Positions 7,888-28,702 of a stretch of DNA of 64,000 nt are shown here, piece by piece (position 1 is the stretch's first letter; each line of letters begins with the position of its first letter). The DNA is from Cellulomonas soli (GTDB lineage: Bacteria; Actinomycetota; Actinomycetes; Actinomycetales; Cellulomonadaceae). The stretch spans positions 3,348,001 through 3,412,000 of the forward strand of contig NZ_JACBZJ010000001.1 of assembly GCF_013409305.1 (NCBI RefSeq). Direction: 5' to 3'. The notes beneath the pieces were generated by a model that saw only the letters and a list, made by a program, of their open reading frames with translations, searched no databases and was not told the origin of the DNA. Made by a program: the position numbers and the translations under genes.

Positions 7888-8847
7888 TCAGTCGAGTGCC
7901 AGGGTGCGTGGTTGAGGAGCGACCGACGCGGGGCTGGTCAGATTGGCTTCGAGGGACGGCGGCCGGACACCCGAGGTGAGGGGAAGCTCCCGCAAGAGGG
8001 AGCGCGACGAGGCGATGATGATGCTCAGACTCTGTCGGAGTCGATCGAGCGCGCCATCCGCCCAAGCAGCGACGTAAGGCACGGTGTACGGATCGGCGAC
8101 CATCCCGGCATGAGTCGTCACGATGTACGCGATGGACTCGGCCTCCACCTCTGCCTGCCCCCGGCAGGTCAGGTCCGAGGCGTACTCGGGGAAGCGTGTG
8201 GTGTGGTCGGCGCGGATGTGTCCGAGCTCGTGCGCGAGGGTCTTGACCGCCTGCGCTGGGTCGACGTCCTCGCGCACGCGCACGCGCCGGCTGGTGAAGT
8301 CGGTGTAGCCGTTGACGCCTGGCGGGCAGCCGCCCCGGTCGAGGGTGTACCCGTCCTCGCGCACGAGACCGGCGAGGTGATCCCAGAGTCCCGCGGGGGC
8401 GTCGCCGAGGAGGAGCTCGGGTGTGTTGTCGGGCACGGGGTCGCCGTCGGTCTGGGTGATGTCGAAGACGTGCACGATCTTGAACCCGCGCAGCACCCGC
8501 GCGGGGGCCGCTGCGTCATCGCCCGGTCCGGCGTGGTCGGTGGTGGGTGGTGTCGTGGTGTCGTCGTCGAGCTGCCGGTAGATGCAGGGGGCGAGGATCG
8601 CGATGCCGTGCTCGCCCTTGGTGACGCGTCGGCCCAGGGAGTTCCAGGTGCGGATGCCGGCGACGCGGGTGGCGTCGGGTCGTTGGGTGGCGATGAGTAG
8701 CACGTTGGAGGGGGAGTAGGTGGGGAACCGGGCGGCGATGGTGAGCATGGTGGCCCAGGCCTCGGAGTGGACGAGGTTCTCGACGGCGTCGACGAGCTGG
8801 GCGTGGATCGCAGCGAGTCGTTCGTCGGGGGAGGGTCGTTCGGGCAT
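7888..8847 (-). CDS. ArdC-like antirestriction protein with zinc-peptidase domain
   Basis: The N-terminal part resembles the ArdC single-stranded DNA-binding domain (SEAWATMLTIAARFPTYSPS, then NVLLIATQRPDATRVAG and TWNSLGRRVTKGEHGIAILAP). The C-terminal part is an ImmA/IrrE-type metallopeptidase domain with HELGH in AVKTLAHELGHIRADH near residue 206. In known conjugative plasmids ArdC protects incoming DNA from restriction. Here it is the last gene of the minus-strand transfer operon, starting six bases after the wall-hydrolase stop, which fits early expression with transfer. The length of 319 aa is normal. Confidence 0.85.
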   Translation of the reverse strand: MPERPSPDERLAAIHAQLVDAVENLVHSEAWATMLTIAARFPTYSPSNVLLIATQRPDATRVAGIRTWNSLGRRVTKGEHGIAILAPCIYRQLDDDTTTPPTTDHAGPGDDAAAPARVLRGFKIVHVFDITQTDGDPVPDNTPELLLGDAPAGLWDHLAGLVREDGYTLDRGGCPPGVNGYTDFTSRRVRVREDVDPAQAVKTLAHELGHIRADHTTRFPEYASDLTCRGQAEVEAESIAYIVTTHAGMVADPYTVPYVAAWADGALDRLRQSLSIIIASSRSLLRELPLTSGVRPPSLEANLTSPASVAPQPRTLALD

Positions 8848-8853
8848 GGTCGC

Positions 8854-10074
8854 TCACCTGCCTGGGGGTGCGGGGTGGATGGTGTCGGCGGGCAGCAGCG
8901 CGCCGCGGCAGACGGGGTCGGACCAGCCGAGGTACCCGCCGCCGCGGTAGAAGCCGGTGAGCTGGGCGAGGGTGAGCAGGTAGACGCCGCCGTGGTTGCC
9001 GGTGGCGGCGTCGAAGGCGCCGTTGGAGGTGACCTTGATCTGGGTCGGGTCGCAGCGTCCGGGGTCGGCCTGCACGACGATGGAGACGTGGCCGAAGGGT
9101 CGGCCGGTGTCGAAGAAGACGAACGAGCCCAGCGGTGGGCAGAGGTCGTCGGGGTGGGCGTGCCCCTCGGTGAGCATCTGGTGCCAGTGGGCGGTGGCGG
9201 AGGGATACCCGGAGCCGAGGTACCCGTAGGCGCGGCACGCGAGCCGGTCGCACAGCTGGGTCCACCCGGAGGTGACCCCGACGTAGGCCATGGCGTTGCG
9301 CACCGCGGTGGCCACGTCGACCGGTGTACCTGCCGGCACTCGGACGTCACCGCGGCCGAGGTCAGGCACGCAGCCGGCAGAGCCCTGGGTGCCGGACGCG
9401 TCGGCGATGCTCGGGTCGGGTGCCGGCTCGGGGTTCTCGGCTTGGGCGCCGGAGACGGGGTCGGCGGTCCAGGCGGCGACCCGTTCGGCGACGTTCGCGA
9501 TGAAGTCGCGGGTGGTGGCGGGGATGGTCGGGTAGGTGCGTAGCCGGGACTCGCCGGCGTTGTGGGCGATGATCAGCGCGTCCAGGACGGGGATGGTGGA
9601 GGAGGCCCAGTCGGGGTGCTCGGTGCGGATCTGTCGCACCCCGGTCAGTCGGTCGCAGAGGTAGCGGCCGGCGACGGTGGCGTGGATGTCGGGGTCTTGC
9701 ACGTCCCAGGTGCCGTTGCCGTTGAGGTCCGCTGACCAGGGGTGCCCGTAGGCGTTCTGCCAGATGGTGGCGTTGAGCTGGAACAGGCCCCAGGTGCCGC
9801 CGTTGGCGTCGTCGGCGTAGGCGTCGGGTCGGAACCCGGACTCCTGGGCCATGACCGCGGCAATCCACGGCTCGGGCAGGTCGGGGCACCCGGCGCGCAC
9901 CTCCGCCACCCACCCCCGCGCCGCCACCGGGACCGGCGCGTCGTCAGACAGGGTGCCGCCGCCAGCGGTGGCCAGGCACTCGTGCGTGCCGAACGCGACC
10001 CCGAGGGCCGTGACGATGGCGAGGGCGGGGACGGCGAGGATGCCCAGGGCGCCGAGGGTGAGCTTGCCGATCAT
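8854..10074 (-). CDS. bifunctional peptidoglycan hydrolase of the mating channel
   Basis: The protein has an N-terminal membrane anchor (residues 5-28). A lytic transglycosylase domain follows, with the catalytic-type Glu in AAVMAQESGF and GLFQLNATIW. After a Pro/Glu linker comes an NlpC/P60- or CHAP-like cysteine peptidase domain with a Cys-containing helix (QLCDRLACRAYG) and the partner His in FGHVSIVV. Two-domain hydrolases of this type (VirB1/TraG-like) open the wall for conjugation. Its ATG overlaps the coupling-protein stop in ATGA. It acts outside the membrane and is 406 residues long. Confidence 0.85.
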   Translation of the reverse strand: MIGKLTLGALGILAVPALAIVTALGVAFGTHECLATAGGGTLSDDAPVPVAARGWVAEVRAGCPDLPEPWIAAVMAQESGFRPDAYADDANGGTWGLFQLNATIWQNAYGHPWSADLNGNGTWDVQDPDIHATVAGRYLCDRLTGVRQIRTEHPDWASSTIPVLDALIIAHNAGESRLRTYPTIPATTRDFIANVAERVAAWTADPVSGAQAENPEPAPDPSIADASGTQGSAGCVPDLGRGDVRVPAGTPVDVATAVRNAMAYVGVTSGWTQLCDRLACRAYGYLGSGYPSATAHWHQMLTEGHAHPDDLCPPLGSFVFFDTGRPFGHVSIVVQADPGRCDPTQIKVTSNGAFDAATGNHGGVYLLTLAQLTGFYRGGGYLGWSDPVCRGALLPADTIHPAPPGR

Positions 10075-11876
10075 GTGGGCACCGCCGCCCCGGTCGCGGT
10101 GGCGTGCTCGACGGCCTGCTGGTCGGCGCGCAGGGTCGCGGCGTCGTGTCGCCCGGTCCAGGGGGTGAGGTCGATGACGGTGGGTCGGGTCTGGCGCAGC
10201 AGGAGCACGCCGGTCCCGAACGGCAGGGTGCGCAGTGCCGAGGCGGGCATGACGGGCACGGTGCGCAACGAGGTGGAGGTGGAGCGTTCGCCGCCGCGGC
10301 TGCTGGCGCGGGTCTGGGTGAGCTCGTCGATCTCGCCGAGCAGGCGGGCCACGTCGTCCAGGTCGCGGTACTTGGCCAGGCCGCCCAGGACGATCTTGAC
10401 GGTGGCGGCGTCCCAGATCGCGTCGGCGGCGTGCTCGCCCCAGCGGGCCCTGGCCTGTGCCAGGGACTGCAGGACGGCCAGGGTGGTGATGCCGGATCCG
10501 CCGCCTTCGGCCATGAGGGAGGGCAGGGACGGCAGGGGGGTGAGGTTGGCGATCTCGTCGAGCGCGAGCAGCAGCGGCGGGTCGAGCCGCGCGCCGGGTG
10601 AGCGGGCGGCGAGGGCGCGGGCGGTCTCGGTGATGTCCTCGACGAACGCGGCAACGAGGGGTGCGCAGGATCCGGAGGCGACGGCGGAGGCGAGCAGGTA
10701 GAGGGTGCCGGACTGGGCGAGGAAGGTGGCCGGGTCGAACTCCTCGCCCGGGGGTGGGTCGACGGCCTCGAGCACATCGGGGTCGGCGAGGGCGGCCAGG
10801 GACTGGCGCACGCCGAGCCAGATGGAGTCGCGGGTGCGCGGATCGGAGTGGATGGTCGCGTCGAGGGCGTCGGCCCACCCGTCGGCGGAGCGGGTGCGGT
10901 TGAGGATGGTGACGGCGTCCTCGGCCAGGGCCGGGTTCAGCGACCAGCGGTACAGGTCGACGGCGCGGCGTCCGTCGAGGGCTGCGGCGTGCAGGAGGCA
11001 GCGCAGGGCGGTCTCGGTCTGCCCGGCCCAGAAGTCGGAGTCGGAGACGGTGCGACCGAAACCGGCCCCGGCCGCCAGCCCGCGGGCCCGCACGAGGGCG
11101 GTGCGGGGTGTCTCGCAGCCGCGCACGGGTGACCAAGCCAGCCCGCCGGGCAGACCGGCAAGGCGTTGGGGGTCGAAGATCGCGACGGGTCCGCGGGTGC
11201 GCCGGTGGCGCAGGGTGACGGCCAGGGTGTCGGGGCGGGTGGAGGTGGCCACGACGGGGCCGGGTGCGTCCAGGACCCAGGGGATGAGCAGGTGCAGGCC
11301 CTTGCCCATGCGGGGCGGTCCGACCAGCAGGGAGGAGTCCTCCACGGTGCACCACAGGTCGCGTCCGCGCAGCGTCCCGAGCCGGTACCCGACCTGCGCG
11401 GCCTGCGCGGTCCGATCCAGCGACGGTCGCACGACGGCGGCCCGCCCACGCAGGGCGCGACGCCCGGCGACGGCCAGGACCTCGCTCGGGGACGCCATGC
11501 CCGGCAGGGCGCGCAGCTCGTCGATGCCATGCCCGAGCCGCCGGCGACCGAGCCGCGAGCAGATCAGGGCCACCGAGGCGACCACGACGGTGACGACGAG
11601 GGTCGTACTCGCCCAGTACGCGACGGGTCCGGGCATCAGGTCGGGACGAGGCCAGGCCAGGGCCGGGTTGCCGGGGTGCGCCACGGCCCCCAGGGCGGTC
11701 AGCATCCCCGCCTGCGGCAGGGCGCGGCCGGTGAGCAAGCACGCGACAGCGGCGCCCACCCACAGCACGGCCGCGACGACGAGCACGCCGGAGAGGGCGG
11801 CCAGTGCCCAGTCGGTCAGGTCCGGCCCGCCCACGGACCCGGCGCCTGGTCGCACCGGGGGCCGTCGCCCGTTCAC
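10071..11876 (-). CDS. type IV coupling protein (TraD/TraG/VirD4 family)
   Basis: A 601-residue membrane ATPase that links the relaxosome to the channel. Two N-terminal membrane helices are visible (ALAALSGVLVVAAVLWVG; ASTTLVVTVVVASVALI). Walker A, VGPPRMGKG, is near residues 183-191, followed by a substrate-site strand with TRPDT. Walker B is in LLLALDEIANL. The C-terminal TraM-recognition part contains SGITTLAVLQSLAQARARWG. The GTG start overlaps the preceding stop as GTGA, and its own stop overlaps the hydrolase start as ATGA. All catalytic motifs look intact. Confidence 0.9.
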   Translation of the reverse strand: MNGRRPPVRPGAGSVGGPDLTDWALAALSGVLVVAAVLWVGAAVACLLTGRALPQAGMLTALGAVAHPGNPALAWPRPDLMPGPVAYWASTTLVVTVVVASVALICSRLGRRRLGHGIDELRALPGMASPSEVLAVAGRRALRGRAAVVRPSLDRTAQAAQVGYRLGTLRGRDLWCTVEDSSLLVGPPRMGKGLHLLIPWVLDAPGPVVATSTRPDTLAVTLRHRRTRGPVAIFDPQRLAGLPGGLAWSPVRGCETPRTALVRARGLAAGAGFGRTVSDSDFWAGQTETALRCLLHAAALDGRRAVDLYRWSLNPALAEDAVTILNRTRSADGWADALDATIHSDPRTRDSIWLGVRQSLAALADPDVLEAVDPPPGEEFDPATFLAQSGTLYLLASAVASGSCAPLVAAFVEDITETARALAARSPGARLDPPLLLALDEIANLTPLPSLPSLMAEGGGSGITTLAVLQSLAQARARWGEHAADAIWDAATVKIVLGGLAKYRDLDDVARLLGEIDELTQTRASSRGGERSTSTSLRTVPVMPASALRTLPFGTGVLLLRQTRPTVIDLTPWTGRHDAATLRADQQAVEHATATGAAVPT

Positions 11877-12982
11877 CGGGACACCACCTGCCCGGCATCC
11901 CGCCCGACACCGGTCGGGTTCGGCGACGCGGCGGCGACGGCGGTTGTCTGCGGTGCCAGGGCGGTGGCCGTGATCCGCAAAGCGCTGGTGATGGCGTGCC
12001 CGGCATCCACCAGGTCGCCGACGAGGGTGGCCGGGTTGGTGGCGGCAGCGCGCAGGTGGCCGGCTCCGACGTCGGCCAGGTGGCGGACCTGGTCGGCGGC
12101 CACCTGGCGGATCACCTGCGGCGGATGGGCGTACCAGCCAGCCTCGACCGCGGCGGTCAGGTCCTCCAGGGCGGGCAGGTCTGGGCCGTGATGGGCGTGC
12201 GCGTGCGCGGCCCACGCCACCGTGGTCAGGTCGACGCGTTGCCCGAGCTCGGCGAGCTCGATCGTCGTCCCGTACACGGCCCGCCACCCGGGGTCCTCGA
12301 CCCGGGTCGGTGGCAGCCAGTCGACCACGTCGGGTACCAGGTCGGGGTGGGCGATAAGGGTGCCGACGAGCGCGACGAGGTGGGCGTGCTCGGCGTCCGG
12401 GTCGCGGAGCGGGTGCGCCTGCAGGTACTTGTCGGCGGCCGTGCGGGCCGCCAGGCCGGTGTTGCGGGTCGCCGCGCGCAGGTGCAGGGGCACGACCACG
12501 TCGTCGTGCGGTCGCCCGGTCGCCTGCGCCCAGCGAGCCCCGACCAGGTCCAGGTCCGCATCGACGACGGCGCACGTGGTGGTCAGCGGGGCGGGGTCGG
12601 CGTGCGTGACCGCGTTCAGGGCAGAGGCTTGCAGCAGCACGCCCAGCCCCGCGGTCTCCCGGCGCAGTCCACCGTCGGCGACCATCCGCGCGTAGGCGAG
12701 CGGCTGCGGGTCCGGGGGAGTCGCCGTCAGCAGCTGCGTGAACCGGGGCAGGTCCGCGACGCGCGGGCCGAGGCGGTCGAGGAGGACCGCGGCCATCGAG
12801 TTCGGGTCCAGGCCGCCGACGTGGTGCCTCTCGAGGAGGGCGGTGTAGACCTGGGTGTGCCACAGGTCTGCGAAGTCGTCGGGCCGCAACCACCTGCGCA
12901 CCTGCTCCAGGGCGTCGGGCCGCAGCATCAGCGCACCGAGGGTGCCCTGTTCGGCGAGTCGGACGACGTCGTCGTGGTTCAT
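11873..12982 (-). CDS. DnaB N-terminal-like protein of the transfer operon
   Basis: A 369-residue protein with two copies of a DnaB-N-like helical module. The first (residues 8-70) runs EQGTLGALMLRPDALEQVRR and continues to LWHTQVYTALLERH. The second (about residues 200-265) runs VALVGTLIAHPDLVPDVVDW and continues to WRAVYGTTIELAELG. There is no ATPase domain. Proteins like this recur between VirB4-like and coupling-protein genes in actinobacterial elements. A role in docking replication or relaxosome proteins is inference. It overlaps both neighbours by four bases. Confidence 0.75.
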   Translation of the reverse strand: MNHDDVVRLAEQGTLGALMLRPDALEQVRRWLRPDDFADLWHTQVYTALLERHHVGGLDPNSMAAVLLDRLGPRVADLPRFTQLLTATPPDPQPLAYARMVADGGLRRETAGLGVLLQASALNAVTHADPAPLTTTCAVVDADLDLVGARWAQATGRPHDDVVVPLHLRAATRNTGLAARTAADKYLQAHPLRDPDAEHAHLVALVGTLIAHPDLVPDVVDWLPPTRVEDPGWRAVYGTTIELAELGQRVDLTTVAWAAHAHAHHGPDLPALEDLTAAVEAGWYAHPPQVIRQVAADQVRHLADVGAGHLRAAATNPATLVGDLVDAGHAITSALRITATALAPQTTAVAAASPNPTGVGRDAGQVVSR

Positions 12983-14292
12983 CGCGATCCACCTCCCAGA
13001 TCGGTCTCCTCACGCATGGCCGCGTCGGTGTCGACGACGGCCAGCTCGGCGGGGTGCAGCAGGTGGTGCACGACGTGCGTGCGCGCCGGCATCGTCCACA
13101 GCCCGCTCCCGCGCGGCAGTAGCGGCAGCAGGTCCCGCTCGGCACGCGTCAGGCCCAGCGCGGTGGCGGTGCCGGCGAGCTGGTCGGACTCCTGCCGGTA
13201 GATGACTCGGGTCGAGCAGTCCGCCAGCAGCCCCTCGGCCAGGGCGCGGGCCTCCGAGCCCTGGCGGCCGATCGCGTCCAGGTCGGACAGGCGGTGCAGC
13301 ACCATGAGGTTTGCGATGCCGTGCGCGCGCGACAGCTTCCACTGGGCCTGCATGCGGCGCACCAGGGCGACCTGTCGCAGTAGCCGCCACGCCTCGTCGT
13401 AGATCACCCACCGCTTGGCCGACGTGGCCAGCAGCGCCCCCTCGAGCCACGCCGCCGAGCACGTCATCGCCAACGCGAGGGCGTCCTCGTCCGAGCCGAG
13501 CCCGGACAGGTCCAGCACGACCATCGGGGCGTGCGGGTCCAAGTTCTGGGTGGATCGTCCGTCGAACAGGCCGGCCAGGTCGCCGCGCACCAGGCGCCGC
13601 AACCCGTGGGTGACGTCGCGCCCATCGGCCACGCGGTCCTCCACCCGCAAACCGTCTGCCTTCGCGGCTGCTCGGTCGGGTGCGCCGAGGGCCTCGACGA
13701 CGGACCCGATGGTGGGGGAGGCGTCGTGCTCTTCGGTGAGGGCCAGTGCGGCATCGAGCGCGCCCTGCTCGGCCGCACCCAGCTCGCGACGCAGCGTCAG
13801 TGCCGCGACAGCGGCCAGGACCCGCCCGCGCGTCGCGTGCACGTCGACGCCGGGTGCCACGTCCAGCGGGTTGAGCCGGGTCGACAGCCCCGGGCCGAGT
13901 CGCACGACGGTCCCACCGGCCGCGCGGGCGACCGGGGCCCACTCACCCTTCGGGTCGCCCGGCACGTACACGGCCCGACCGGCGGCGATCGAGCGCAGCG
14001 CCAGGGACTTGGCCAACGCGGACTTGCCCTGACCGATGACCCCGGCCAGCAGCACGTTCGGGTTCGTCAGCTCACCCGCGCCGTACAGCGCCCACGGATC
14101 GAAGCAGAACAGCCCACCGGTGAACGCCTCCACGCCGACCGGCACCCCGAGGTCGCACGGCGGGGTGGCCAAGAACGGGTACGCCCCACCCAACACCGCG
14201 GAGGAGGACCGATGCGCAGGCAACCGCAGACGCGGCCCCGCCACGTACCGACCGCCACGGGTGCGGAACCGGGTCGCGGCTGCGCCGGTCAC
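12979..14292 (-). CDS. VirB4/TraC-like conjugation ATPase
   Basis: The GTG at 14292 is chosen because it overlaps the upstream stop in GTGA. The product is 437 aa. Walker A is GVIGQGKSALAKSL. The nucleotide-pocket strand YVPGDPKGEW follows, with Walker B-like segments MVVLDLSGLG and RWVIYDEAWRLL, and the motif SRAHGIANLMVLHRLSD. This is the C-terminal ATPase part of VirB4. The N-terminal VirB4 domain is missing or replaced by the separate SCO6880 protein encoded just upstream, the usual arrangement in actinobacterial conjugative elements. It powers channel assembly at the inner membrane face. Confidence 0.87.
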   Translation of the reverse strand: MTGAAATRFRTRGGRYVAGPRLRLPAHRSSSAVLGGAYPFLATPPCDLGVPVGVEAFTGGLFCFDPWALYGAGELTNPNVLLAGVIGQGKSALAKSLALRSIAAGRAVYVPGDPKGEWAPVARAAGGTVVRLGPGLSTRLNPLDVAPGVDVHATRGRVLAAVAALTLRRELGAAEQGALDAALALTEEHDASPTIGSVVEALGAPDRAAAKADGLRVEDRVADGRDVTHGLRRLVRGDLAGLFDGRSTQNLDPHAPMVVLDLSGLGSDEDALALAMTCSAAWLEGALLATSAKRWVIYDEAWRLLRQVALVRRMQAQWKLSRAHGIANLMVLHRLSDLDAIGRQGSEARALAEGLLADCSTRVIYRQESDQLAGTATALGLTRAERDLLPLLPRGSGLWTMPARTHVVHHLLHPAELAVVDTDAAMREETDLGGGSR

Positions 14293-15707
14293 AGCACACC
14301 CCTGGCCAACGGCAGGCACGCCGCCGCGTGCGCCACACCCTGCTGCCCGACCAGGCGACGCACCTCGCACATCGCCTGCGCCGCCGCCGACTCCATGGCC
14401 GCGCACCGCTCCTCCAGCTCCGAGGTGCCGCTGGCGCTGACGGTGATCAGGCCGGTGAACCGCAGGTCGCCGTGCCCGGCCACGAGCTCGGCCTCCCGGC
14501 GCTCCAGGTCGGCGACCTCGGCCCGGGTCGACTCGTCCTCGATCTGCCCGATGCGCGCCCGCTGCGCGGCGTCCGCCGCATGCTCGACCTTCGCCCGCCG
14601 GATCTCCCGCAACGCCTGCGCCGTCGGCAACGGCTCGGCGACCAGCGTCACCGTCCGATCCGTCGCCTCACCCAGCAGCAGGGGCTGAAGGAACGCCGGG
14701 TGCACCTCGGTGCGCGGCCACTGCGACACCCAGTACGTCGCATGCACCCCGGTGCCCGTGGCGAGCGAACCCCACCGCTCCCGAACCCCCGGACTCCCCA
14801 CGAGCGCCGCGGGCGTCTCCTCGGCACGCGCCGTGGCTCCAGGCTCGTAGGCGGCGCGCAGCACACGCGCCAGGTCAGCCCTGCCGATCCACCCCCCTGC
14901 GCGCAGCCCCGCGACCTGCACCGCCGCCCCGAACGACTCCAAGTGCCGAGCGACCAGTGCCAGGTCGGATGCGGACAGCCGACGGCGACCCCGCGGGGCC
15001 CGCACGGCGATGGCGACGAACGTCTCGCGCACGTGCGGGACCACGAACCCCTCGTCGAGCATGCCCGCCAGCTCCGCACTCAGGCCGGGCTCTGACGCGT
15101 TGCAGTGCTCGCGCCACCACCGGCGCGCCGGCGCCAACCCACCGGACCGCGTGTTGACCAGCACCTGCACCCGCACGATCGCCGACTGCTGACAGGCCAC
15201 TGCCAATGCCCGACCCCACGCGGCGACCTTGTGCTCCTGCGCGGCCGCGTCCTCCAGCACGAACCCGGTGCCCGTCGCCCGCAGCACACCCGTCACGGTC
15301 CCCGTCCGACGCTCGAGCACCAGCACCCCACCGAGCTCGTCGCAGTCCACGAGCTCGAGGCGCCCGGGCAGACCCGGCAGCGTGAGCCACCGGCCGGGCG
15401 CGACGTCGCCCGCGGTCGCCACAGTGCTCGTGGCGCCGGTGCCCTTCCGTGCATGCCACTGCGCCAGCAGCGGCACCCACCCCACGACCGGGCGCCCACC
15501 GACGCTGACCGAACCGGCCACCAGCAACGTGGCCCACACCGGCGACGCCACCACCAAGCCGGACATCCCCGCCGAGTAGACCGCCACCACCGCGACCACC
15601 GTCGCCGTCCCCACGACCGCCAGCTGCGTGCCGGACAGGCCGAGCAGCACCCCACGCGTCTCCAGGCGACCGAACCGCGTCGTCGGGCCGACGTCGGGCG
15701 CGCTCAT
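14289..15707 (-). CDS. SCO6880-family type IV secretion protein
   Basis: A 472-residue protein with a PrgI-like N-terminus containing two membrane helices (AVVGTATVVAVVAVYSA; VVASPVWATLLVAGSV). A large mixed alpha/beta domain follows, with WLTLPGLPGRLELVDCDELG, LAVACQQSAIVRVQVLVNTR and a late coiled helix (VADLERREAELVAGHGDLRF). This pattern is that of SCO6880-family proteins, which stand in for the N-terminal half of VirB4. It overlaps TrbL-like and VirB4-like genes by four bases on each side. Confidence 0.82.
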   Translation of the reverse strand: MSAPDVGPTTRFGRLETRGVLLGLSGTQLAVVGTATVVAVVAVYSAGMSGLVVASPVWATLLVAGSVSVGGRPVVGWVPLLAQWHARKGTGATSTVATAGDVAPGRWLTLPGLPGRLELVDCDELGGVLVLERRTGTVTGVLRATGTGFVLEDAAAQEHKVAAWGRALAVACQQSAIVRVQVLVNTRSGGLAPARRWWREHCNASEPGLSAELAGMLDEGFVVPHVRETFVAIAVRAPRGRRRLSASDLALVARHLESFGAAVQVAGLRAGGWIGRADLARVLRAAYEPGATARAEETPAALVGSPGVRERWGSLATGTGVHATYWVSQWPRTEVHPAFLQPLLLGEATDRTVTLVAEPLPTAQALREIRRAKVEHAADAAQRARIGQIEDESTRAEVADLERREAELVAGHGDLRFTGLITVSASGTSELEERCAAMESAAAQAMCEVRRLVGQQGVAHAAACLPLARGVL

Positions 15708-16831
15708 GACCCCTCACCACCTGGACGACGCGTCGCGGGCGCCGGTGGTGGCGGGCTCGGGTGGGGGAGTGCACCGACCTTCGCTCCGCCCGCCGCCTTG
15801 GCCGCGCCCGCGCCACGCACGGCTGACCCGACGCCACCGGTGACGGCGCTCATGGCGACCTGCTGCGCGGCGTAGCGCGTGGTGCTGCCGGCCGAGCGGG
15901 CGACCTTGCTGATCGGGTTCGCCGCCACCGCTCCGTGCATCACCGCGGCGGCCTCCATTCCCGACCAGTGCACGAACCGCCACGTCAGCCACGGCGCCCA
16001 CACCGCGATCGCCAGCAACAAGATCCCCACGAGCGTGTCCGAGAGCCCCGCAGCACCACCCGGGCTCGGCGTAGCCGCCTCGCCGTCGGCGGGGCCGGTC
16101 CCGGTGAACGCCGAGGCCCCCACCACGAACGCGACGACGATGACGACCTTGCTGAACACCAGCGCCGCGACGACCTCCAACCACCGACGCGTCCACACCC
16201 GCGTCTGATCCCACGCCGACCCGGCAAACGCGATCGGCGCGAACACGGCCACCAGCACCAGCGCCGCCTTGCGGAAGAGCAGCACCCCCCACAGCAAGAC
16301 GAACCCCACCGTCAGCGCCACACCCATCAGCAGCTGCAACCCCGGCGCGAAGCTCGCCATCGCCGCGAAGTCGAAGAACTGCCCGGCCGCCTCCGCGACC
16401 GTCATCCCCGCAGCCCCGGCGATGTACGCGCAGATCCCGTCGACCGCCGTCAACGCCACCTGCGTCACCGCCAGCGCGAGCACCGCCCCGAGCAACGCCT
16501 TGCCGACCCCGACCACCGCGCGCACCAGCCCACCCGGCTCCCGGCGCAGCACCGCGGTCAGCACCTGCACGACGAACAGCCCCACCACCACCGGCAGCGC
16601 CACCGCGGCGATCACCGAGACGTTCGCCTGGAACCAGCCGACACCCAGGTCGATCGTGGTCGTCGAGTCCAGCGCCGACATCGCGAGCTCGCCGACCTGA
16701 GCCGCACCCTCCACGAACGCCGACCCCAGCCCACCCAGGACGTACTGCGAGGCGGCGTTCTGCGTCGAGGCGGCGGCATCGCAGGCGAACGCGACCGGGC
16801 CGATGCACGGGTCGAGCATCGGGACGGCCAT
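15704..16831 (-). CDS. TrbL/VirB6-like polytopic channel protein
   Basis: A 375-residue membrane protein beginning at ATG 16831, one base after the stop of the pilin-like gene. About six or seven hydrophobic helices are visible, including VSVIAAVALPVVVGLFVVQV, GLQLLMGVALTVGFVLLWGV and KVVIVVAFVVGASAF. The short Cys-containing region before the first helix (DPCIGPVAFACDAA) is typical of this family. The last 60 residues are Ala/Gly/Pro-rich and cytoplasmic or disordered. It would form part of the inner-membrane pore of the mating channel. Confidence 0.8.
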   Translation of the reverse strand: MAVPMLDPCIGPVAFACDAAASTQNAASQYVLGGLGSAFVEGAAQVGELAMSALDSTTTIDLGVGWFQANVSVIAAVALPVVVGLFVVQVLTAVLRREPGGLVRAVVGVGKALLGAVLALAVTQVALTAVDGICAYIAGAAGMTVAEAAGQFFDFAAMASFAPGLQLLMGVALTVGFVLLWGVLLFRKAALVLVAVFAPIAFAGSAWDQTRVWTRRWLEVVAALVFSKVVIVVAFVVGASAFTGTGPADGEAATPSPGGAAGLSDTLVGILLLAIAVWAPWLTWRFVHWSGMEAAAVMHGAVAANPISKVARSAGSTTRYAAQQVAMSAVTGGVGSAVRGAGAAKAAGGAKVGALPHPSPPPPAPATRRPGGEGS

Positions 16832-16832
16832 G

Positions 16833-17144
16833 TCAGATCTGCCCGCCCAGGCCGGAGAAGAACGCCACGATCGCGTTCGCCCCACCGATCAGCAACGCAC
16901 CCCCCGCCGAGACCAGCACACCGGTCTTGCCGCCCGAGGCGTACCCGTAGTTGCCCTGCTGACGGGCCACCGCCCAGATGATCACCGAGACGACCAGGCC
17001 TGCGACGCATGCCACCAGGCCCCAGGTCAGCAGTGCCCCGACGATCTCCTTGACGACCGCCAGGCCGGGGAGTCCACTGTCGTTCGGGGTGACTCCGGGG
17101 TCTGCGCCCGGGATTGTCAGGTGCAGCTCTGCAGCGAATCGCAT
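16833..17144 (-). CDS. VirB2/TrbC-like pilin, DUF6112-type
   Basis: A 103-residue protein with two membrane helices (LTWGLVACVAGLVVSVIIWA; GVLVSAGGALLIGGANAIVA) joined by a short polar loop with GNYGYASGGKTG. This is the topology of VirB2/TrbC pilins and fits the DUF6112 proteins found first in actinobacterial transfer operons. The ATG has AAGGGGCG about six bases upstream. It is the first gene of the eight-gene operon that ends with ArdC, so its upstream region probably carries the operon promoter. Confidence 0.75.
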   Translation of the reverse strand: MRFAAELHLTIPGADPGVTPNDSGLPGLAVVKEIVGALLTWGLVACVAGLVVSVIIWAVARQQGNYGYASGGKTGVLVSAGGALLIGGANAIVAFFSGLGGQI

Positions 17145-17387: not shown

Positions 17388-17417
17388 CGGCCTGGAGTGT
17401 CGGTCCGCTCGGGCACC

Positions 17418-18152
17418 ATGTGTTCCATGAGGAAGCTGGACACCGAGTGGGCCACCCAGGAGATTGACAAGTTCCTCCACGTCACCGCGCAGACATCGGT
17501 GGACATGGGGCCGGGCGTCGTCTACTTCGGGACCGTGATGCGCGGCCCCAAGACCGAGGCGGCTGCCGCCGCCCACGTCGTGGAGCAGATTCTTGACCGC
17601 GTGCTTCCGGGGTGGAGCCGCGAGCGTCCGGAGAAGGACAAGGAGTACCGCTGGCTGCGTGACCAGGCGGCGCGCGGGAAGACTGCGCTGCTCCGCGAAG
17701 CCGAGCTAGCCGAGAAGCTTGGCGACAACGCGCCAGAGATGGACGCGGCGAACCTGCACCCGTGGTCATGGGAGAACGGCCGCAGCTACTGGAACACCGG
17801 TCACTACCACCAGGCGGTGATGCAGGCGGCAATCAGGATCAACGCGGAGACGCAGGCCAAGTTGGGTCGCATGGACGTGTCGGAGACGGACCTGTTCAAC
17901 CAGGCGTTCTCCCTCTCGGCACCGACCACCGACGTGCCCCGGCTCCGGCTGATGGACGATGACGGCAGCAAGACCTACAAGAACGTCCACCGGGGCGCCA
18001 TGGCGTTCGCCGAGGGGCTCTACGCTGCGATCCGCAACCCCGGCATGCATGTGCCCCACGACGGTGGCGAGGAGCAGCTCGCGCTGGAACAGCTCGCCGC
18101 GTTCAGTCTGTTGGCTCGCTGGGTGGACCAAGCGAAGGTCGAGCGCCCATAG
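17418..18152 (+). CDS. TIGR02391 (Ymh) family protein
   Basis: The C-terminal half matches the TIGR02391 pattern: 'LHPWSWENGRSYWNTGHYHQ' and a helix with AVMQAAIRINAE, then 'DLFNQAFSLSAP', then a late helix with GAMAFAEGLYAAIRNP followed by Gly-Met-His. The R-N-P-x-x-H signature is characteristic and resembles HEPN-type RNase domains, so an RNA-cleaving or abortive role is possible but unproven. The N-terminal 100 residues look helical. Three start codons are in frame (17397 GTG, 17418 ATG, 17427 ATG) without a decisive ribosome site. The next gene begins two bases after the stop, suggesting a functional pair. Confidence 0.75.
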   Translation: MCSMRKLDTEWATQEIDKFLHVTAQTSVDMGPGVVYFGTVMRGPKTEAAAAAHVVEQILDRVLPGWSRERPEKDKEYRWLRDQAARGKTALLREAELAEKLGDNAPEMDAANLHPWSWENGRSYWNTGHYHQAVMQAAIRINAETQAKLGRMDVSETDLFNQAFSLSAPTTDVPRLRLMDDDGSKTYKNVHRGAMAFAEGLYAAIRNPGMHVPHDGGEEQLALEQLAAFSLLARWVDQAKVERP

Positions 18153-18154
18153 CC

Positions 18155-18820
18155 GTGACCGGGAGCGCGCAACAAGTCGAAGACATCACGCGGTGGCTCG
18201 GGCTCGCGATTGCTGTTGTCGGCGCTCTGCTGGCCAGCCCAGAAGCCACCGCGCACACGTGGGGTCAGTTCCGCACATGGCTGCGGACTAGTGCCAATCG
18301 GGTCCGGGGCCAGCTCGCGCGCGTCCTCCCGTTCCTCCGGCGAAGCGCCCACGTCCACATCTCATCCGTGATGGGCGTGGTGGACGGCGTCACCGCCACA
18401 CTCACAGCCGAGGGTCGTGGCCTCGCGGGCTGGCGTGACGACGTGACCGTCGGGGCGAAGCTGGCGATCTTGGATGAGCGGACCAAGGCAATGGATCGTG
18501 AACTGGGCCAGCTTCAAGCCGACCTGAAGCGTGTCGAACGCCGTGCCGAGGCGCGCCTGAGCGAGACGGCGGACGCGCTCCGCCGCGACATCGCCGACGT
18601 GCGGGCAGAGGTTGGCGCGCTGCGTGGCGAGACGGTCCGCACCGACGCTTCCGCATTGCCGCTCATCGTGCTGGGCGTCGTTCTGTCGGGCATCGCGGCC
18701 GACGCCGCAGCATTCCAGCTCTGGTTCTGGTTGCTTGTCCTCGTGGGGGCGGCGGTCGCAGCGGCCGCGCTCGCGTCGAGGATCGTGCGCGAGTGGAGGC
18801 GTCGTGCCCAGCCTTCATGA
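18155..18820 (+). CDS. coiled-coil protein with C-terminal membrane hairpin
   Basis: The GTG lies two bases after the TIGR02391 stop. The 221-residue product has a hydrophobic N-terminal segment (WLGLAIAVVGALLAS). It then has a long charged coiled coil (residues 100-165, rich in Glu/Arg/Leu heptads such as RTKAMDRELGQLQADLKRVE). Two closing membrane helices follow (LPLIVLGVVLSGIAADAAAF; WFWLLVLVGAAVAAAALAS) with a basic tail. No family is recognised. A membrane partner or effector for the upstream TIGR02391 protein is inference from the coupling. Confidence 0.65.
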   Translation: MTGSAQQVEDITRWLGLAIAVVGALLASPEATAHTWGQFRTWLRTSANRVRGQLARVLPFLRRSAHVHISSVMGVVDGVTATLTAEGRGLAGWRDDVTVGAKLAILDERTKAMDRELGQLQADLKRVERRAEARLSETADALRRDIADVRAEVGALRGETVRTDASALPLIVLGVVLSGIAADAAAFQLWFWLLVLVGAAVAAAALASRIVREWRRRAQPS

Positions 18821-19149: not shown

Positions 19150-19338
19150 TCAGTCTTGTTTCGACTCGCTCTTCGCGACCGGAACGGCTGGCTGGGTCTT
19201 CGGCGGAGGACCGGACCCGGCCGGAGCGGTCCGCGAGGTCGGGGTATACCCGGCGTACAGGCTCGCAGGATCGTCGCTGCCGCGTCGGTGCACGGGATGT
19301 TCCGGCGGGACGCCGTAGAAGACGTCTTCGGTGCCCAT
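19150..19338 (-). CDS. array peptide 5: small Gly/Pro-rich protein
   Basis: A 62-residue protein, last in the DUF6338 peptide array. It carries the shared C-terminal motif AGYTPTSRTAPAGSGPPPKT followed by QPAVPVAK. This aligns with GYVP...GKPPSTPPATPTAK in array peptide 2. The N-terminal part (EDVFYGVPPEHPVHRRG) is unlike its sisters. No signal peptide or hydrophobic segment is present. It starts 105 bases after the previous array gene, with GGGAAGGG upstream of the ATG. Function unknown. Confidence 0.6.
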   Translation of the reverse strand: MGTEDVFYGVPPEHPVHRRGSDDPASLYAGYTPTSRTAPAGSGPPPKTQPAVPVAKSESKQD

Positions 19339-19443
19339 CGCGTCGTGCCCTTCCCTGCGGTTCAGAACTGTGGTCGGCGTTCGCCTCTTGTTGTCCGCGG
19401 CCAGGCTACGGTGACATGGACTGCCGTAGTCGGGGTGTAGCTG

Positions 19444-19644
19444 TCAGTGTGACCCGCTCTGGTTCGACGAGCCGCTGCACTGCGCCGGCGGCGTTGCCGA
19501 GGGCGTCCGCGGGGGTCGCCCGGCCGGGACCGTCCTTCCGGAAACCACCGTGTAGCCGCGCTCCTCGTAGTCGCCCAGCCGCGGCGCGAATGCCGGCCTG
19601 CTCGCCTGGTTCTCGTCCGGGCGAACTGCCATGTCCTCAGGCAC
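19444..19644 (-). CDS. array peptide 4: small Gly/Pro-rich protein
   Basis: A 66-residue protein whose GTG start overlaps the end of array peptide 3 by eight bases, so the two are co-translated. The shared motif is ERGYTVVSGRTVPAGRPPRT followed by PSATPPA. An N-terminal acidic/polar lead (PEDMAVRPDENQ) and a Ser/Gly-rich tail frame it. No membrane segment is seen and one Cys is present. It looks disordered apart from the motif. No known family is recognised. Confidence 0.62.
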   Translation of the reverse strand: MPEDMAVRPDENQASRPAFAPRLGDYEERGYTVVSGRTVPAGRPPRTPSATPPAQCSGSSNQSGSH

Positions 19645-19774
19645 CAGTGCCCTCCTTTGGCTTGGCTGGCGATGTAGCAGGTGGCGTCTTCGGCGGACCT
19701 GAAGGGCTCTCGAGGCCCTTGTTCGGCCGGTAGCCCTCCTGGATGTGCTGGTCGCTGGGAGGCTTCTCAGCCAC
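19637..19774 (-). CDS. array peptide 3: 45-residue Gly/Pro-rich protein
   Basis: Start GTG at 19774, stop at 19637; GAGG lies four bases upstream of the start. The product has QEGYRPNKGLESPSGPPKTP followed by PATSPAKP, the clearest copy of the array motif. It is very short and low in hydrophobic residues. It begins seven bases after peptide 2 ends and overlaps peptide 4. Such a short frame could be chance alone, but the motif and the chained overlaps with its sisters argue that it is real. Confidence 0.6.
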   Translation of the reverse strand: MAEKPPSDQHIQEGYRPNKGLESPSGPPKTPPATSPAKPKEGTGA

Positions 19775-19780
19775 GCATCC

Positions 19781-19951
19781 TCACTTCTTCGCCGTCGGGG
19801 TTGCGGGTGGTGTGCTCGGCGGCTTGCCGGGGTTGGGCACCTTCGCTGTAGGCACGTATCCGTGCTGGAGGCTTGCTCCGGATCCGTTCGTGTCAGTCGT
19901 CCTGGGTGGACGTGCCGAAGACGATGGACGCGATGACTGCTTGTCGCTCAC
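19781..19951 (-). CDS. array peptide 2: 56-residue Gly/Pro-rich protein
   Basis: The GTG start overlaps the stop of array peptide 1 as GTGA, and the stop is at 19781. The N-terminal half is Ser/Arg/Thr-rich. The C-terminal half holds the motif QHGYVPTAKVPNPGKPPSTP followed by PATPTAKK. It is basic, has no hydrophobic segment, and is probably unstructured until bound. The four-base overlap ties it to the DUF6338 transcript. Confidence 0.6.
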   Translation of the reverse strand: MSDKQSSRPSSSARPPRTTDTNGSGASLQHGYVPTAKVPNPGKPPSTPPATPTAKK

Positions 19952-20136
19952 GGAGTCGGGTTCCCCTTCTTCCCCTGTGTTCGGCGCACGCCTTCTGCAC
20001 TGGCCGGTCCTTTCGGCGGCTTGCCGGGGCTCTCAACGAGCGTTCCACCTGGACCTAGGCCGCTGTAGCCGCCGGACGGAGGAGCGAACCACTTGGCCGC
20101 CGGGCGCGCCTTCGCCTTCTCGATTCGCTTCGACAT
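19948..20136 (-). CDS. array peptide 1: 62-residue Gly/Pro-rich protein
   Basis: The ATG overlaps the DUF6338 stop in TGATG, so it is translationally coupled to the membrane protein. It has a Lys/Arg-rich N-terminus (SKRIEKAKARPAAKW) and a divergent motif copy: GGYSGLGPGGTLVESPGKPP followed by KGPAS. It is the most basic of the five array members. The basic lead could bind membrane phospholipid or nucleic acid; that is speculation. No known family is recognised. Confidence 0.65.
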   Translation of the reverse strand: MSKRIEKAKARPAAKWFAPPSGGYSGLGPGGTLVESPGKPPKGPASAEGVRRTQGKKGNPTP

Positions 20137-20783
20137 CAGCTCGCCTCCTGCCCTTCGTAGTCGCCGGCCTGCTCCTCAGTATCCGTAGTGAGCGGGAGGA
20201 AGTCCACGCTCACCGCCCTGTCGCACTTGATGACCATGCCGTTCGGAGCGTGGCATACGTCGGTGAACGTCCCGTCGACGTCGATGACCCACCCTTGCTC
20301 GACGAAGACTTCCTGCGGGTACGGGTAGGAGCTCGCGTATGACCGCCAGCCGTAGAACCCGCCGAGCCAGAGCCCATCGTCAAGGCGGACACGCACCCAT
20401 CCGGCCTCGCCCTGCTTGAACGCCCAATCCCAAGCCGTCGGGGTCGAGTCGTAAGGGCGGCGCAGACGAAGCGTGTCCAGCACCCAAGCGGAAGCGATGC
20501 CGAACCACCGTGCGCTCAGGATCCAGTAGCTGACCCGCGCGACGACCCACGGAACGACGAGCGCAAGGACGACGAACGCCACCCCGATGCGCTGAACGTG
20601 CGCAAGCGCGAGGTCCGGATCTCGCGCGTACTCGACGACGTGCTTACCAAGGAAGAACGCATAGATGCCACCGAACGCTGCTGTGGAGACGATCGCGTGC
20701 AGGATCTTCGCGCTGAAGTCGGCCTGTTCAGGATCGGGGCCAGCGACGGCACGCTTGGAGGCTTGGTAGACGAAGCCGGGCAC
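20136..20783 (-). CDS. DUF6338-family membrane protein
   Basis: The core matches DUF6338: AWDWAFKQGEAGWVRVRLDD, then GLWLGGFYGWRSYASSYPYP, then VFVEQGWVIDVDGTF. The GTG at 20783 is the first standard start codon. It would cut off most of the first membrane helix, because the frame continues upstream through VQAAVILTLVVPGFVY to an ATC codon at 20828. That codon stands exactly where relatives begin with Met-Pro-Thr-Ser, and it has GGAGAGGAG upstream. Two more membrane helices follow (ILHAIVSTAAFGGIYAFFLG; GVAFVVLALVVPWVVARVSY), then a soluble beta-rich domain. Its stop overlaps the first peptide gene (TGATG), so the membrane protein and five peptides form one operon. Confidence 0.78.
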   Translation of the reverse strand: MPGFVYQASKRAVAGPDPEQADFSAKILHAIVSTAAFGGIYAFFLGKHVVEYARDPDLALAHVQRIGVAFVVLALVVPWVVARVSYWILSARWFGIASAWVLDTLRLRRPYDSTPTAWDWAFKQGEAGWVRVRLDDGLWLGGFYGWRSYASSYPYPQEVFVEQGWVIDVDGTFTDVCHAPNGMVIKCDRAVSVDFLPLTTDTEEQAGDYEGQEAS

Positions 20784-20828
20784 GACGAGAGTCAGGATGA
20801 CGGCGGCCTGGACCCAGCTAGTGGGGAT

Positions 20829-28054: not shown

Positions 28055-28702
28055 TTGATCACGGAGAACTGGCTGGGGATCCTGCTCTTCTTCCTCTTCG
28101 CCGCACCCGGCCTGCTGTACGACCTTCGGGAGGATCGGTACCGGGCTACGGTGAAGGAGAGTGCGTTCCGCGAAGCCGGTCGCACAGCACTTGCGTCGGT
28201 TCTGCTAGCGAGCGCAGCCCTGCCGTTCACCTACCTGGCGTCGCTGCTTCTTCCAGCCGTGTTCGCGTCGCCTGCCGAGGCCTTGCGCGCAGGAGCAGGA
28301 GCGGTGAGGGTCGATCCGGCACGGCTCGGAGCAACCGTCGCCGTCCAGGTGGGCGTGGCACTGGCGCTCGCCTGGCTCGTGCAGTGGCTCAGGCGCCGCA
28401 GCTCGGAGACGAACATCGTCGCTGACTCGTTGTGGACTCTGTCGCTGCGAGACCAGAAGACTCCCGATTCCCGTGTGCTCGTTCGGGCGCGGCTCAAGAG
28501 CGGCGAGATCTGGTCGGGGCTCGTCGAAGGGTTCAGTGCAGACCTAGAAGTCGCCGATCGGGAACTAGTCCTTGGACCGCCACTGTCCCGAATCTCGAAC
28601 CGCAAGTCACAGGAGATGCCGCAGGAGTGGGTGCGCGTCGTGATCACCGGGACTGAGATCGAATACCTCATGGTCCAATACGTGACCCTCGACGAGGGGT
28701 AG
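28055..28702 (+). CDS. second DUF6338-like membrane protein
   Basis: A TTG start directly follows the stop of the small Pro-rich gene. The N-terminal helix LGILLFFLFAAPGLLYDLRE, the conserved charged loop (ATVKESAFREAGRTALAS) and two further membrane helices are followed by a soluble domain: SLWTLSLRDQKTPDSRVLVR, then ARLKSGEIWSGLVEGFSAD and WVRVVITGTEIEYLMVQYV. This matches the DUF6338 architecture, although it is distant from the copy at 20136. Function unknown. Confidence 0.7.
   Translation: MITENWLGILLFFLFAAPGLLYDLREDRYRATVKESAFREAGRTALASVLLASAALPFTYLASLLLPAVFASPAEALRAGAGAVRVDPARLGATVAVQVGVALALAWLVQWLRRRSSETNIVADSLWTLSLRDQKTPDSRVLVRARLKSGEIWSGLVEGFSADLEVADRELVLGPPLSRISNRKSQEMPQEWVRVVITGTEIEYLMVQYVTLDEG

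Follow-up and report, generated by a model that had tools for sequence, protein, structure and literature searches.

A DUF6338 membrane protein gene and its small GYxP partner genes in Cellulomonas soli and other bacteria

Six consecutive frames on the minus strand of Cellulomonas soli DNA raise the question of what a membrane protein of the DUF6338 type has to do with the row of tiny proteins encoded behind it. The stretch of DNA analysed, here called the window, comprises 64,000 nucleotides (GCF_013409305.1, NZ_JACBZJ010000001.1, positions 3,348,001–3,412,000), and the six frames are a DUF6338 gene (20136–20828, −) followed by five small motif-sharing genes, A to E. A first-pass annotation had proposed that these genes are coupled and that the small ones encode ligands, adaptors or secreted or processed peptides of a conflict system; the frame sizes and joins that it described were confirmed in the window. 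We find that the pairing of DUF6338 with small GYxP genes is real and conserved: the genes co-occur in a consistent order, closely spaced and often overlapping, and the motif is conserved. Together they make up a two-part module that has so far gone unrecognised.

Co-occurrence of DUF6338 genes with small GYxP genes

We examined 56 loci chosen by DUF6338 alone, blind to the small genes (35 genome contigs and 21 viral contigs, mainly gammaproteobacterial and viral). A match was a frame of 25–120 residues, on the same strand and at most 700 bases downstream, carrying GY.[PVG] followed after 3–35 residues by PP, a motif taken from the window. The full downstream region was available in 52 of the 56 loci; L080 was left out since its contig ends. 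A small motif frame lay directly downstream of DUF6338 in 48 of the 52, compared with 0/52 on the opposite strand, 0/51 upstream, 0/47 far upstream and 1/45 far downstream, while shuffled downstream DNA gave motif frames in 3/1100. Once the loci had been reduced to one per cluster at 80% identity, a downstream motif frame was present in 32 of the 36 testable clusters. The coupling to DUF6338 proposed for the window is supported, with motif frames strongly enriched next to DUF6338, and copy number varies: one motif frame was counted in 36 loci, two in 4, three in 6, four in 2 and none in 4, a few of the counted frames being overlapping or long-start readings. The four loci without a match were L066, L094, L118 and L119; L066 nonetheless encodes a small protein with SY instead of GY, and the DUF6338 match of L119 spans only query residues 96–192. 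A first scan of genome contigs with the window DUF6338 protein returned no relative.

Purifying selection acts on the small genes and is most pronounced at the motif, as the first-pass annotation had expected of a genuine array. Across 13 gene pairs, some sharing loci and many near saturation at synonymous sites, the ratio of nonsynonymous to synonymous differences per site (pN/pS) was 0.203 for the small genes overall, 0.063 inside the motif and 0.263 outside it; for DUF6338 it was 0.131. In its common form the small protein combines three GYQP-like repeats with PPKKP, PPGDE or PPKER at the C terminus. A profile that favours this three-repeat form found 255 database proteins; among the 120 listed, 103 have exactly three repeats, 45 end in PPKKP, and proline makes up 19% of residues.

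The association was also approached from the side of the small genes. Across 81 genomes of the genus Cellulomonas, a profile of A found five copies, every one of them next to DUF6338. Seeds of the profile account for four, the independent addition being one genome (G816), and another genome (G009) has a DUF6338 match yet no match to the profile. Among database proteins the A profile found 17, counting the window's copy and one or more of the seeds. For two of them the longest contig is listed with a length that also stands for DUF6338 proteins (4,395,128 and 7,646 bases), which suggests that they too are linked to DUF6338 genes.

An alternative is that the frames arose by chance in G+C-rich DNA or reflect local decay, and the codon-position G+C of window A, B and C is indeed not clearly gene-like. 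For the family as a whole this explanation is ruled out by the enrichment, its persistence across clusters and the selection on the motif; the counterparts of A and the 17 A-profile proteins also contradict it. For window B and C it is countered by motif-level relatives only. Overall, we give it almost no credence.

The association is looser in a second, mixed set of 52 loci (37 actinobacterial, 15 from plasmids or phages), scored with a blunt rule that had no chance control in G+C-rich DNA. Here 29 of the 52 loci matched, some of them probably by chance: 20/29 with the canonical domain type and 9/23 others (p 0.049), a link between domain type and small genes that is suggestive only. By this rule many actinobacterial DUF6338 genes have no partner. 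Inspected post hoc, five of the nine canonical misses (L056, L058, L120, L121 and L132) had a proline-rich frame starting at most 60 bases from the stop, and several of the nine non-canonical matches involved broken, misaligned or more distant frames. In two other canonical misses, L005 and L020, it is DUF6338 itself that bears a proline-rich tail, and no separate small frame matched. The window contains a second, divergent DUF6338 gene (28055–28702, +), which has neither small frames nor the conserved S-F-x-S stretch; the same holds for L011 and L012.

The array in Cellulomonas soli and its relatives

No ATG, GTG or TTG occurs at the natural start of the window DUF6338 gene, which likely begins at ATC (20828–20826, −) behind a good purine-rich stretch, in agreement with the end coordinate given in the first-pass annotation. 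The codon at the corresponding place is ATC in L007, from the same genus, and GTG in L008, L009 and L010. In a TGATG join, the DUF6338 stop shares one base with A (19948–20136, −; 62 residues), which has a clear counterpart in L007 and counterparts in L008 and L009. B (19781–19951, −; 56 residues, with GYVP and GKPPSTPP) shares the four bases GTGA with A, and C (19637–19774, −; 45 residues, with GYRP and GPPKTPP) follows B after a 6-base gap. Both align with gammaproteobacterial GYxP proteins and have motif-level relatives only, with no clear counterpart in L007. D (19444–19644, −; 66 residues) overlaps C by eight bases, and E (19150–19338, −; 62 residues, with GYTP and PPPKTQP) lies 105 bases beyond D; each has a clear counterpart in L007. 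By eye, purine-rich stretches fitting ribosome-binding sites precede the starts, most clearly those of A and D.

Each of the five window proteins carries one motif, giving five motif frames in total. Besides the first residue, the invariant columns of their alignment are one G and three P. The invariant G is part of G-Y in B, C, D and E, and the Y-x-P part deviates in A (GYSG) and D (GYTV). A common motif with diverging N-terminal parts, as initially described, is supported. Duplication plus divergence, offered as the origin of the array, holds only in part, as A, D and E are maintained as distinct proteins in two species of the genus.

Pfam at E values up to 1 gave no family for any of A to E, and the small proteins tested had nothing convincing in Pfam or NCBIfam and nothing in the PDB. 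They are proline-rich and probably disordered, a make-up that, with the predicted Sm-like domain of DUF6338 described below, fits the ligands or adaptors of the first-pass annotation. Its other suggestion, secreted or processed peptides, would make the small proteins precursors that DUF6338 processes or exports. Small size and copy-number variation speak for this role. By eye, however, no hydrophobic signal stretch was seen in them, the motif, including its C-terminal PP, is under selection and is the best conserved part, and DUF6338 has no match to any peptidase or transporter family in Pfam; we regard this role as very improbable.

A comparable operon has been described in Pseudomonas stutzeri: that report (PMC10433244) describes three proline-rich small proteins of fewer than 50 residues, seen by mass spectrometry and encoded in a predicted DUF6338 operon. 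Its authors' search found no conservation outside P. stutzeri, and they considered that the genes might have arisen de novo. The two cases are alike in combining a DUF6338 gene and proline-rich small proteins in one operon, but the arrangement found here occurs in several phyla rather than in one species. Judged by gene arrangement, this suggests that the P. stutzeri proteins belong to an old and widespread GYxP family. The module was probably overlooked because its small genes are mostly shorter than 80 codons, of low complexity and partly unannotated, and a literature search for the word GYQP returned plant work only. In the plasmid gene table, itself incomplete, L006, L051, L052, L054 and L056 each have at least one unannotated small partner frame. 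In one of these, an Acinetobacter plasmid (L051, 1669–2261), DUF6338 is annotated as two overlapping pieces, and it is one gene in the relative L052.

The DUF6338 protein and a possible mode of action

The window DUF6338 protein matches Pfam PF19865 with an E value of 3.7e-39 (134.9 bits against a gathering score of 26.5), and its hydropathy peaks at residues 2–20, 41–59 and 80–98. In the predicted structure of a relative, modelled as a single chain, three helices lie in the membrane and an Sm/LSm-like domain in the cytosol, so the window protein would consist of three predicted transmembrane stretches followed by a probable cytosolic Sm-like domain. At the sequence level, the window protein matched no LSM family in Pfam at E up to 1, and a PDB search with DUF6338 gave no Sm chain at E up to 5. 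None of five DUF6338 proteins matched a PADLOC model at E values up to 0.1. In our literature search on DUF6338, PF19865 and IPR045919, which returned PMC10433244 alone, an Sm-like fold for DUF6338 was not reported. We also modelled a read-through chain, with the DUF6338 stop removed and a small gene fused to it, as a docking test; the tail stayed low-confidence in the model and the approach was dropped.

MscS has three transmembrane helices, then a middle domain of Sm-like fold and then a further domain. The predicted layout of DUF6338 is alike in its three helices and Sm-like domain, and DUF6338 could accordingly be a minimal MscS-like channel, with the small proteins as its gate. Nevertheless, the window protein has no match to Pfam MS_channel at E up to 1, no MscS chain was among the 50 structure matches listed for the relative's model, and DUF6338 differs in ending after the Sm-like domain and in having small partners. 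A channel of this kind seems to us rather unlikely.

Sm proteins carry D-x-x-M-N and R-G RNA-contact residues. The modelled fold would bring DUF6338 close to Sm, LSm and Hfq proteins, and it could form a membrane-anchored RNA-binding ring whose C-terminal tails are encoded in trans, comparable to the disordered tail of Hfq. In the DUF6338 family alignment, though, S-[FY]-A-S-S-x-P stands where Sm proteins have D-x-x-M-N, and by eye no conserved R-G is present; three transmembrane helices and dedicated small partner genes set DUF6338 further apart from these proteins. Autoregulation of Hfq by its disordered tail is the subject of PMC5606850. RNA binding of this type strikes us as improbable for DUF6338.

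Our preferred reading, held tentatively and at slightly less than an even chance, is that a membrane-anchored Sm-like DUF6338 protein acts with dedicated, disordered and multivalent small partners as accessory cargo. DUF6338 would span the inner membrane with three helices and present a domain of Sm/LSm fold to the cytosol, the fold being that of the modelled relative. The second part would comprise between one and five small proteins, rich in proline and probably disordered, with about one to three GYxP motifs each. These may bind the Sm-like domain in trans as multivalent tails, with the conserved S-[FY]-A-S-S-x-P stretch as the probable site. Arrays would spread the repeats over several chains where other loci have them on one. 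The fewer repeats a protein has, the larger its array tends to be (Spearman −0.59, p 6.4e-6, 50 loci, uncorrected for kinship). DUF6338 might form a ring like other Sm proteins, and the tails might set the state of this membrane ring. The weakest step is the use: by acting on the membrane, the module would most likely give the cell or the mobile element accessory protection, for instance from phages. The reverse test with A rests on one new genome, which lowers our confidence in this reading slightly.

The overlapping or closely spaced genes, the mobile context and the toxin-antitoxin or defence genes near some loci would suit a toxin-antitoxin-like pair, in which DUF6338 harms the membrane and the small proteins restrain it. 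Antitoxins, however, do not usually come in arrays of as many as five, in which members such as A, D and E stay distinct; moreover, the partner genes come after DUF6338, and partnerless DUF6338 genes exist. We consider such a pair unlikely.

A more specific form of the tail-binding reading is that GYxP tails hold the Sm-like membrane ring in a safe state, and that loss or proteolytic cutting of the tails, for instance by the caspase or CHAT protein encoded next to some loci, makes the ring open or rearrange, with damage to the infected cell's membrane. We consider this version doubtful, with a low probability.

Distribution, genomic surroundings and significance

DUF6338 is patchily distributed, being above the cut-off in 8/58 relatives, 19/396 genomes of the phylum and 22/396 of the order. 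The module occurs in Actinomycetota and Pseudomonadota, on plasmids, in viral contigs and in a few metagenome bins filed under other phyla. Some of its loci lie on plasmids or in phage-like contigs, and some adjoin integrases, baseplate genes or a Tn7-like tnsE. The Proteus locus had one match among phage records and no DNA match in E. coli genomes.

The neighbours of a few loci bear on the conflict system suggested by the first-pass annotation. A nucleotidyltransferase of the cyclic oligonucleotide-based antiphage signalling system (CBASS) and a two-transmembrane (2TM) effector adjoin DUF6338 in L054, a CHAT protein adjoins it in L058, and ThiF and MPN proteins do so in Acinetobacter loci. 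TIR and caspase genes are found at L055, L056 and L081; L023 also has a caspase relative, and L093 a weak one. TIR-caspase systems are type IV Thoeris. In L081 (2506–4787) the TIR and caspase genes lie ahead of the module and in L055 (1671–3891) behind it, on the same strand in both, and the two caspases are 90% identical despite the differing gene order.

After six near-duplicate loci had been dropped, a simple frame picker listed 89 neighbours upstream, of which 79 were examined, and 83 downstream, of which 75 were examined. No constant third gene was found with Pfam on both sets or with PADLOC on the upstream set. The 79 upstream neighbours included two caspase and two ThsB_TIR matches, and no Pfam family occurred more than twice among them or among the 75 downstream. 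Since no neighbour is constant, the module seems complete in two parts. DUF6338 loci resemble CBASS and TIR-caspase systems where such genes adjoin, but differ in that a nucleotidyltransferase or a TIR/caspase pair is absent beside most loci examined. The conflict-system proposal keeps the support of these few loci and lacks that of a constant neighbour; on the circumstantial evidence of the genes beside some loci, the module most likely serves to defend the cell or the mobile element.

Within the window, the minus-strand region 7888–16885 has ArdC-like, SLT and DnaB N-terminal matches and a TrbL match just below the cut-off, and looks like part of a conjugative element. On the plus strand, 17397–18820 encodes a Hypoth_Ymh protein (PF09509; PADLOC Aga_HEPN, E 8.8e-9) adjoining a frame with weak coiled-coil and membrane-type matches, perhaps another defence pair.

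For the family, the supposed de novo small proteins of P. stutzeri become a testable family, and the GYxP tyrosine, the PP end and the S-[FY]-A-S-S-x-P stretch are residues offered for mutation. A transmembrane Sm-like protein with multivalent disordered partners encoded in trans would place the Sm fold in a new arrangement, and, if the tails do hold it in a safe state, the module would be an immune membrane effector built on that fold.
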